From: Dehalococcoidia bacterium | GTDB taxonomy: Bacteria > Chloroflexota > Dehalococcoidia > Lucifugimonadales > JAGWBF01 | DNA: 64,000 bases | Direction: 5' to 3' | Assembly: GCA_021295955.1 (NCBI GenBank) | Contig: JAGWBJ010000005.1 | Location: 230,597 to 294,596 of the forward strand | In this document: one piece after another, positions 7,359-13,091 of the stretch | Layout: each line of letters starts with the position of its first letter | How positions within the stretch are numbered: the stretch's first letter is position 1 | The notes under the pieces: model-generated | Database searches by the model: none | Seen by the model: only the letters and a program-made list of their open reading frames with translations | What the model was told of the DNA's origin: nothing | Program-made: the position numbers and the translations under genes

Positions 7359-9545
7359 GTGTTTGCCCGCCTGACCGACTTCGTGTCCAGTCCTCGCGGC
7401 AAGTGGATAACGCTCGTCGCCTGGCTGGTCGTCGCCGGATTACTCATCACACAACTCCCGAGGCTGGAAGAAGCCATGGAGAACGAACAGGCGCACTTCC
7501 TGCCCAGGGACGCCGAGGCGACCCGGGCCTATGAGTTCGCCCGGGAGCACTTCCCATCGACCGGTACGCCCGTCCTGATCGTGTTTCGCGAACCTGGCGG
7601 CTTGGGTCCTGCCGCGTACGCGGCCGTGGCCGAGATGGCGAGCTGGCTGTCGGGTCCCGACGGGCCGGAAAACGTGACGCAGGTGCTCAGTCCGGACGCA
7701 GTCACGGGGACCCAGTCCGGCCTGGTGTCCGCTGACGGCACGACGATGTACGCATTCGCGGAAGTCGTCGGAGAGCCTGCCGAACCCCCGTTCCTCGAGA
7801 CGGTAGAGGCCATCAGAGACCGATCAGCGTCCTTCGACCTGCCCGGCGTGGAGGTCGCCGTGGGCGGCCCGGGCGGGTTGATTGTCGACCTGGTCGGGGT
7901 TTTCTCGCAGATCGACACCCTGCTGCTGCTGGTAACGGCCCTGCTCGTGCTTGCATTGCTGGTCATCATCTACCGCTCGCCCATCATGGCCGCAATCCCA
8001 CTACTGGGAGTAGGTCTCGTCTTGCAACTGGCCGGCGCAATCGCCGCCTGGTACGCCCTTCGTCTAGATGTGCCGGTCTCCGGGCAGACAACGGGCATCA
8101 TGACGGTAGTGCTATTCGGCACCGGCACCGACTACGTCCTCTTCGTCTCGGCACGCTTCCGTGAAGAGCTGACCCGGCATGACGACCGTCACGAGGCGAT
8201 GAGGAGGACCATGCGCGGCGTCGGTGGCGCCGTCGCTTCGGCGGGGGTAACGATCCTCGTTGCCTGCTCGGCACTGGGGTTCGCGACGCTGCGTTCCTAC
8301 CAGGCGCTCGGTCCCGTCATAGCCCTTGCCGTGGCACTGATGATGCTGGCGGCGCTCACCCTCATCCCGGCGGTCCTTACGATCTTTGGAAGGCTAGCCT
8401 TCTGGCCCATGAAGCCTCGACTGCAACCCTCCACGACAGCTCAGGTCGACTGGAGGCGCAGCGTGTACGGCAGGGTCGGCGCCGTCGTTCTGCGCCGTCC
8501 GGGCCTCACTCTTGCCGCCACGGTCATTGGCCTCGGATTGCTGCTGACGGGGCTGATCCCATACCGCGCCAACTACGACCAGCTTGAGAGCCTGCCAGGG
8601 AACTCCGAGTCCGTCCGCAGCTTCCAGCTCCTTCGGAGCGGCTTTCCGGCCGGCGAGCTCTCACCGACACGACTCTACGTCTCTTTGCCTCCGGCCGCCA
8701 ACGGGCTCGACCCCATCACAATCGAGCGGTTCGACATGCTTACTCTCGAAATGGTCAGCCACCCGGCCGTCGCCGACGCCTCGGGTCCCAGCAGACCCCT
8801 GGGCGTTGATGGCCCCGCAGCATCCCTGCTGCCGGAGTCCATGGCGCAACGATTCGTCTCCGCCGACGGACGGGCGGCGCGCATCGACGTCGTGCTGAAA
8901 GACAATCCCTTCTCGCGAGGGTCGCTCGATGCCGTACCCCAGCTCCGCACCTTCGCTCGAACGAAAGCAGAGGAACTTGGCTTCCCCGCCGGGAGCGTAC
9001 TCGTTGGCGGAGATTCCGCCGAGGCTTACGACACGCGAACTGCGGGCGATCGAGACTCGTTCGTGGTGCTTCCCCTGATTCTGTTGGGAATCGGAGTTGT
9101 GCTGGCGCTGCTGCTCCGATCTTTGATCGCGCCGCTGTACCTGATGGCAACAATCGCCTTCACGTACTTTGCCACCCTCGGATTTGCGGTTGTGGTCTTT
9201 GTCGTCATATTGGGTCATGCCGGTGTTGGGCCGGCAGTCCCGTTCTACCTGTTCGTGTTCCTGAACGCATTGAGCGTCGACTACAACATCTACCTGATGT
9301 CACGCATCCGCGAAGAGGCGCGGGGGGCCACGCTCACGGAGGCGACACGCCATGCCCTGGCGCGGACCGGCCCGGTCATCACATCCGCGGGGATCATCCT
9401 TGCCGGCACATTCTCCGCTCTGATGACTCTTCCACTCCAGGACCTGCTCCAGCTCGGATTCGCGGTTGCGGCCGGAGTGCTGATCGACACGTTTATTTCT
9501 CTCGTGGGCCGATGGAACTGGTGGCCTTCCCGCGCACCTTCGTGA
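7359..9545 (+). CDS. MMPL/RND-family transporter
   Basis: 728 aa, two MMPL halves with multiple TM segments (GTGTDYVLFVSARFREE, ALSVDYNIYLMSRIREE); GTG start at 7359. Confidence 0.9.
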   Translation: MFARLTDFVSSPRGKWITLVAWLVVAGLLITQLPRLEEAMENEQAHFLPRDAEATRAYEFAREHFPSTGTPVLIVFREPGGLGPAAYAAVAEMASWLSGPDGPENVTQVLSPDAVTGTQSGLVSADGTTMYAFAEVVGEPAEPPFLETVEAIRDRSASFDLPGVEVAVGGPGGLIVDLVGVFSQIDTLLLLVTALLVLALLVIIYRSPIMAAIPLLGVGLVLQLAGAIAAWYALRLDVPVSGQTTGIMTVVLFGTGTDYVLFVSARFREELTRHDDRHEAMRRTMRGVGGAVASAGVTILVACSALGFATLRSYQALGPVIALAVALMMLAALTLIPAVLTIFGRLAFWPMKPRLQPSTTAQVDWRRSVYGRVGAVVLRRPGLTLAATVIGLGLLLTGLIPYRANYDQLESLPGNSESVRSFQLLRSGFPAGELSPTRLYVSLPPAANGLDPITIERFDMLTLEMVSHPAVADASGPSRPLGVDGPAASLLPESMAQRFVSADGRAARIDVVLKDNPFSRGSLDAVPQLRTFARTKAEELGFPAGSVLVGGDSAEAYDTRTAGDRDSFVVLPLILLGIGVVLALLLRSLIAPLYLMATIAFTYFATLGFAVVVFVVILGHAGVGPAVPFYLFVFLNALSVDYNIYLMSRIREEARGATLTEATRHALARTGPVITSAGIILAGTFSALMTLPLQDLLQLGFAVAAGVLIDTFISLVGRWNWWPSRAPS

Positions 9546-9602
9546 CCACGGAATACCATTGCCGGGGATTCAATCCCAGGTCGAGAAAGACAGGAGCGAC
9601 CG
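9364..9602 (+). repeat. Long direct repeat copy A (3' end of MMPL gene plus 57 bp downstream)
   Basis: Aligns with 12853-13091 with 3 substitutions and 2 single-base indels. Confidence 0.95.
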
Positions 9603-9793
9603 TCAGGAGTTCCTTTCAAGAGCCCGACTCGTTGTCTCCTGGTATCAGGGCTTTTACTCCGCTGTACTCGAGAACTGTGACCGCGCTGTGGTTGTTGAGA
9701 CTTCCCGTCGCCGATTGCCTAGGTACAAAGGTTCTAATCGAAACACCACCGTTGTTCTGTGGCAAATCTACATCGTCCTGTGGTTTTGCAGGG

Positions 9794-9819
9794 TGTCGGA
9801 AACCACATGGTTTCCGACA
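9794..9819. repeat. Perfect 12-bp inverted repeat with 2-nt spacer
   Basis: tgtcggaaacca-ca-tggtttccgaca. Confidence 0.9.
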
Positions 9820-9909
9820 GCTGGAAGACCATCGCTGAAGGAAGGGTGAGCCATGCGTAACGGTAACGTCATGGACAACGAACAGCAACCGTGGTTACTA
9901 CAAAGGAAC

Positions 9910-11431: not shown

Positions 11432-11631
11432 AGGCTGGAGAGATGAAGAAAGAGCCATCTGTAGAAAGACCCGCGACCCGGTGTTGCTCTCATGTGTTGC
11501 CCCCATACCTCTCGAGGATTCTGGTGGGTGTGCTGGCGTTCTTTGGAGTCGTTTTCATCCTGATGGAGATTAGCGAAGCGCTGTTCGATAAGGGGTTCTG
11601 GGTCTATCTATCGTACGTAATACCCTTCTGA
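11428..11631 (+). CDS. Small single-TM protein
   Basis: 67 aa with hydrophobic ILVGVLAFFGVVFILM; leader resembles the next ORF. Confidence 0.4.
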   Translation: MKAGEMKKEPSVERPATRCCSHVLPPYLSRILVGVLAFFGVVFILMEISEALFDKGFWVYLSYVIPF

Positions 11632-11647
11632 CCCCGATGGTGCCGTG

Positions 11648-12832
11648 ATGAATTGCAAAACGGGATTCGGGACATGGGTGAGAAGAACGGTATTCAAGGT
11701 TGTACTGGTCGTGCTGGTCATTCTCGGAGTGGTTTTCATCCTTACACAGCTCTTTACCGCCTATTTCGTTTGGGGTTTATCCAATCGCACCGATCCCCGA
11801 GTGAGTGGCGAGGCTTTTGGAAAGGCGTCGCAGGCGATGGCGCCCCGATGGTTCCCGGACGGGGATCGCATAGCGTTCAGTCACATCGGAGGGGTCTACG
11901 TGGTTGACTCCGACGGGTCACGTGTCCAGTTGGTACATGGAGGCGCCTTGGTACGTGGGGGCGCCAGGGAACAGGAATTCGCTTATGGTCCAAGCGTGTC
12001 GCCCGACGGCTCTCTACTAGCATATTCTGCCTACAGCGAATCTGATGGCTGGGAGATAGTGACGGCCAAGCCTGACGGCTCCAATCAGCGTAGGCTAACG
12101 GATGGCGACGCGCCAAGTACTAACCCCGCCTGGTCTCCAGATGCTACTCACATTTTCTTCGAGTCAAGCACGAATTACGTTAAAGGCATTTACGTGACGG
12201 CGGTGGATGGCTCCGGTTCGAGTTCTGTATCTAAAGTCGTAAGCGTAGTGGGATTCCCGGTCGACGGATCTCCAGTAGTGTCCCCCGACGGGAGTCGTTT
12301 GGCCTTCGCAGTAAGTGTGTCTCCACTCGCAAGAAGGCTAATGTACGTGGTGAAGACGGACGGGTCGGGCTTGGTGAAGATCGCAGATGAGACGGGGCTG
12401 CCGGCGTGGTCCCCCGACGGTCGTCGTATAGCGTTTGCCACGCGCAAGGTTCAGGGCGGATACACCCCGGTCGCGATATTCACCGTCGGGGTCGACGGCT
12501 CCGAGCCGCGGGAGATATTCGCATTCCCCGACCATCCCCCCCACCTGGGTCCGGCTTGGGTAGATAGCATCTCGTGGTCTCCGGACGGCTCCGACATAGT
12601 ATTTGGGTCCATCATCATCAAAGCGGACGGTTCTGCAATGCGGAGTCTTCCGACCCCGGTCAACGACCCTTCGTGGTCCCCCGACGGTTCCAGGATAGCG
12701 GTTTACACTCAAAGGAGCGAGCCTGGTGTGGTGCTCTACACTGTGGCGCGGGACGGTTCAGATGGCAGAATTCTGGTTGAGCAGAATGGAGACGGAAGTC
12801 TCGTCGCCGCCAAAGGCGGGCCGTTGAAGTAG
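11648..12832 (+). CDS. Membrane-anchored TolB-like / PD40 beta-propeller protein
   Basis: N-terminal TM plus repeated (W/V)SPDGSRIAF-type motifs (FPDGDRIAFS, VSPDGSRLAFA, WSPDGRRIAFA, WSPDGSDIVFG, WSPDGSRIAVY). Confidence 0.85.
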   Translation: MNCKTGFGTWVRRTVFKVVLVVLVILGVVFILTQLFTAYFVWGLSNRTDPRVSGEAFGKASQAMAPRWFPDGDRIAFSHIGGVYVVDSDGSRVQLVHGGALVRGGAREQEFAYGPSVSPDGSLLAYSAYSESDGWEIVTAKPDGSNQRRLTDGDAPSTNPAWSPDATHIFFESSTNYVKGIYVTAVDGSGSSSVSKVVSVVGFPVDGSPVVSPDGSRLAFAVSVSPLARRLMYVVKTDGSGLVKIADETGLPAWSPDGRRIAFATRKVQGGYTPVAIFTVGVDGSEPREIFAFPDHPPHLGPAWVDSISWSPDGSDIVFGSIIIKADGSAMRSLPTPVNDPSWSPDGSRIAVYTQRSEPGVVLYTVARDGSDGRILVEQNGDGSLVAAKGGPLK

Positions 12833-12852
12833 CTATTGTGCAGAAGCCCATT

Positions 12853-13091
12853 GGACCGGTCCGGTCATCACATCCGCGGGGATCATCCTTGCCGGCACAT
12901 TTCTCTGCTCTGATGACTCTTCCACTCCAGGACCTGCTCCAGCTCGGATTCGCGGTTGCGGCCGGAGTGCTGATCGACACGTTTATTTTCTCGTGGGCCG
13001 ATGGAACTGGTGGCCTTCCCGCGCACCTTCCTGACCACGGAATACCATTGCCGGGGATTCAATCCCAGGTCGAGAAAGACAGGAGCGACCG
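12853..13091 (+). repeat. Long direct repeat copy B (decaying copy of the MMPL 3' end)
   Basis: See 9364-9602; +1 and -1 indels relative to copy A. Confidence 0.95.

Follow-up and report, generated by a model that had tools for sequence, protein, structure and literature searches.

Insertion with long target duplication was described by Nobusato et al. (2000) from two Helicobacter pylori genomes and often involves restriction-modification genes (PMC1643837; PMC3031569; PMC4978471). Duplication of a long gene end is also found with the e14 prophage in the Escherichia coli icd gene (icdC), where 165 bp of the gene 3′ end are duplicated, with 12 nt differing between the two tails (PMC11148124). 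The locus described here, located in a window of 64,000 nucleotides (the whole stretch of DNA that was analysed, to which coordinates refer unless another sequence is named), consists of an MMPL-family transporter gene ending in repeat copy A, 3.25 kb of mostly broken genes, repeat copy B and a tRNA-Gly gene. Judged by analogy, it is a probable further case of insertion with long target duplication, an already known kind of event. As in Helicobacter, direct repeats of the target flank the insert and no transposase or integrase was found; here the remnant of a defence-type gene lies at one edge. In the Helicobacter case, however, the empty site is present in another strain, whereas no empty site is available here and membership is probable rather than proven; and the Helicobacter cargo consists of restriction-modification genes, while this one is made up of assorted pieces, among them a broken defence-candidate gene.

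The locus resembles e14 in that more than 150 bp are doubled at the 3′ end of a protein-coding gene, that the proximal copy leaves the coding end intact and that an orphan tail stands at the far side. An earlier note on the window regarded the repeats as greatly exceeding the length of a normal att site, which is overstated in view of the 165 bp doubled in icd. The differences are that e14 has an integrase and prophage genes, whereas no integrase was found here, and that the present copies have a deletion specific to the lineage in common and are nearly alike.

The source genome, of an uncultured bacterium, is a draft MAG (2.56 Mb, 30 contigs, 87.7% complete, 7% contamination), and the locus is on its contig 22, of 332 kb. 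BLASTN aligns copy A (9364-9602, plus strand) with copy B (12853-13091, plus strand) with 235 identities in 240 columns, 3 substitutions and 2 single-base indels (E ~1e-116), reproducing the coordinates and differences that the note had read from the letters. The exact blocks common to both copies measure 7, 41, 3, 82, 42 and 60 bp, and the drift between them is about 2%. On the whole contig this is the sole direct pair longer than 100 bp, more than 95% identical and at most 20 kb apart. The sequence to the right of copy A begins, from 9603 on, with TCAGGAGTTCC, and that to the right of copy B, from 13092 on, with ACGGCCTGTATCG.

Copy A comprises the last 182 bp of the MMPL gene, including the stop codon, followed by a 57-bp trailer. 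The open reading frame (7359-9545, plus strand, 728 aa; Pfam MMPL 2.6e-111) reads through copy A to its stop, so that, as had been noticed, copy A completes the gene. The MMPL gene would have been left intact because the proposed insertion point is 57 bp beyond the stop codon. Copy B is an orphan and decaying MMPL 3′ end, and the compensating indels ascribed to it were confirmed as +1 and −1 relative to copy A.

The descent of the two copies was examined by comparison with the MMPL loci on about 20 contigs of related MAGs, recorded as Chloroflexi, Dehalococcoidia, Acidimicrobiia or simply as bacterium. Some 10 residues of the last transmembrane segment (TRTLIVPALV-like), kept in all full-length relatives aligned, are absent from both copies, which corresponds to a common deletion of about 30 nt at the DNA level. 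Hence both copies descend from the MMPL gene of this lineage, after that deletion, and the duplication of the target itself would be the simplest source of the repeat. No relative with sequence at that point has the base inserted in copy B, and the T of copy B at column 117 was never found among the relatives, while copy A keeps the reading frame. At these informative places the derived state is that of copy B, and the column counts in relatives indicate decay of B. None of the related MMPL loci examined has a second MMPL tail.

The first segment of the insert (9603-9793, minus strand) is the interior of a gene for an MBL-fold defence candidate of the PDC-M48B type, interrupted by an in-frame stop (PADLOC profile, 8.3e-15). 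It is the only defence-type content of the insert and is 65% and 59% identical in amino acids to intact open reading frames of two genomes of the same order, G129 and G075, respectively; in G129 the intact homolog adjoins a patatin gene and is near a type IIG restriction-modification gene. With the profile and with both intact homologs the similarity ends at one residue, no more than about 3 bp from the end of copy A. An imperfect palindrome of 51 bp (9781-9831; self-BLAST, DNA fold z −5.2) is placed at the inner edge of the fragment. Since it occurs only once in the genome, it was rejected as a piece of a dispersed element.

The fragment is followed by a ParB N-terminal domain fragment (10143-10340, plus strand; Pfam ParB_N 1.4e-6, PHROG ParB 5.6e-5), 73% identical in nucleotides to genome G133, and by a gene for a metzincin-like secreted protein split over two frames (10497-11431, plus strand). 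The second frame of the latter contains HEAGHALGLSS, the Matrixin match is weak (E 0.029) and the amino acid identity to a relative at locus L105 is 59%. After a small open reading frame comes the gene of a PD40 beta-propeller protein, an intact frame of 395 aa (11645-12832, plus strand; Pfam PD40 5e-31), separated from copy B by a spacer at 12833-12852. The cargo had been read as ParB and metzincin remnants and a PD40 protein, which is confirmed for ParB and PD40 and, for the metzincin, supported by the motif, the weak Matrixin match and the relatives; the MBL fragment and the deletion shared by the copies had escaped notice. Relatives of PD40 and metzincin are common across the order, so that the pair by itself is no mobile signature and could even be ancestral at the locus.

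With a GC content of 57.8%, the insert is poorer in GC than the contig (66.2%) and ranks among the lowest 1% of windows of 3.25 kb. No further copy of the insert exists in the genome save for two scraps of the metzincin gene, and patching templated from the own genome was rejected as the insert has no donor there. The scraps, of 91 bp (92% identical; L115 9817-9913, G000:C21:129822-129912) and 38 bp (95%; L116 5953-5990, G000:C4), belong to the same genome and sit at or near gene boundaries, the longer one just upstream of another PD40 gene. A plasmid origin was also rejected, near-identity plasmid matches being absent for the parts tried, and so was a viral origin of the PD40 gene, for which there is no viral match. 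Domain searches found no integrase or transposase in the insert parts examined (Pfam) nor in the frames of 9780-10190 (PHROGs), in agreement with the earlier observation that no integrase is visible; little of the insert is unassigned, which leaves scant room for a hidden one. The 3.25-kb stretch is not an intact mobile unit. The suggestion of an unusual mobile unit finds no support, with no integrase or transposase found, contents consisting largely of fragments and no further instance seen.

The position of the MBL cut has consequences for the order of events. With a joint between copy A and the MBL fragment older than the duplication, agreement of the copy B edge with the cut would be a coincidence, whereas such agreement is expected when one event produced both the joint and the repeat. 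The flush edge hence speaks for an insertion as the origin of the repeat rather than for a tandem-duplication relic, and would make MMPL-trailer-59 bp-tRNA-Gly the older order and the insertion a later step. Considering that: (i) the repeat edge coincides with the MBL cut; (ii) the insert is low in GC, and (iii) it has no second copy, the reading already put forward, an insertion at a gene 3′ end with the coding end kept, is still the best one. We propose, with about as much confidence as doubt, that a once-only insertion between the MMPL gene and tRNA-Gly doubled its target and so gave rise to the repeat. In the model, which is built from sequence comparison, the earlier arrangement would have been MMPL, trailer, 59 bp and tRNA-Gly. 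A wide staggered break, to give one example of mechanism, would have opened the MMPL 3′ end and its trailer, and fill-in of the ends would have doubled the target. Captured foreign DNA would then have been joined into the filled-in break by Ku-type end joining, and the outer copy, B, would have drifted after the insertion. Ku is encoded in the genome, which is compatible with end joining and no proof of it; foreign DNA may have been captured during break repair, and neither junction microhomology nor a recombinase pointing to one mechanism was found.

The locus would then be a fairly recent scar left by the capture of DNA, in a lineage represented here by a draft MAG only. If an empty site were found in a conspecific, insertion with long target duplication would be extended beyond Helicobacter and tied to a defence-candidate gene. 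As a single degraded locus it alters no concept on its own. That these bacteria recurrently gain DNA in this integrase-free way, with foreign DNA, in this instance bordered by a defence gene, joined into wide staggered breaks and hundreds of target bases doubled each time, we consider improbable.

Among the alternatives, Campbell-type integration has a low but appreciable probability. Here a circle carrying its own 239-bp MMPL 3′ end would have recombined with the gene, as in e14/icd, by means of RecA or of an integrase since lost; copy A would be a hybrid, one half from the host and the other from the element, and decay of the cargo would have come later. The layout is that of e14, with the coding end restored beside the element and the displaced tail, of 165 bp, at its far end (PMC11148124; PMC6379469), and the ParB_N domain and the defence-type fragment fit a mobile backbone. 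Nevertheless, the searches of the insert found no integrase and left scant unassigned sequence to hide one, the parts tried gave neither plasmid nor viral match, and the donor circle must have carried the MMPL tail of this very lineage with the same deletion.

Doubtful as well is a relic of tandem duplication, in which the cargo would have been ancestral beside the MMPL gene, a unit starting inside the MMPL gene would have been doubled and the second unit would have been lost except for its MMPL tail. The process itself is seen in the order and in the same gene family. In genome G127 (L120, G127:C1:855000-872000), positions 3090-8390 hold four tandem PD40 genes with about 100 bp of a metzincin-like 3′ end before each, a clear case of tandem duplication taking along the tail of the upstream gene. 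Both loci thus have a PD40 gene next to a stray 3′ end from an upstream gene, but each tail in the array precedes a full PD40 copy, whereas here only tRNA-Gly follows. Moreover, what survived of the second unit would have to stop by coincidence right at the MBL cut, and the composition of the cargo is unlike that of the contig.

An assembly chimera in the metagenome bin might be suspected from the 7% contamination of the draft, but it is very unlikely, since the longest exact stretch shared by the copies (82 bp) allows ordinary k-mers and reads to resolve them, and the differences of copy B resemble pseudogene decay more than strain variation.

The right flank bears on the older arrangement supposed by the insertion reading. 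The tRNA-Gly gene (CCC; 13151-13225, minus strand; ARAGORN) had been placed about 60 bp from copy B; the gap is 59 bp and, as the gene is on the minus strand, its 3′ end faces the copy. The comparison genomes include one of the same family (G001) and none congeneric. In G001 tRNA-Gly is a native neighbour as well and the order tRNA-Gly-SWIM-alaS is kept, with no MMPL match, on a contig that stops 191 bp past the tRNA gene, so that this genome shows no empty site. In none of the related MMPL loci are tRNA-Gly, SWIM and alaS the neighbours, and they thus give no view of an empty site. tRNA-Gly was rejected as the attachment site, since its 3′ end is 59 bp off the repeat edge and the pattern search of the window gave a single match, that is, no second partial tRNA-Gly 3′ end; the genome gave weak and distant tRNA matches only. 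The partial tRNA 3′-end repeat that marks the far boundary of tRNA-targeted islands is accordingly missing. Next to the tRNA gene, a small minus-strand open reading frame (13304-13615) with a weak SWIM zinc-finger match is conserved between tRNA-Gly and alaS in G001.

Other repeats occur away from the locus. Near the start of a 573-aa open reading frame, the window contains a perfect 12-bp tandem repeat of 5.2 copies (4113-4174). One or more families of dispersed repeats of about 100-370 bp, 75-88% alike and in both orientations, are represented in the window at 50357-50496 and at many sites of contig 22, at about 16, 148, 165, 171, 178, 221, 303, 312, 316 and 328 kb.
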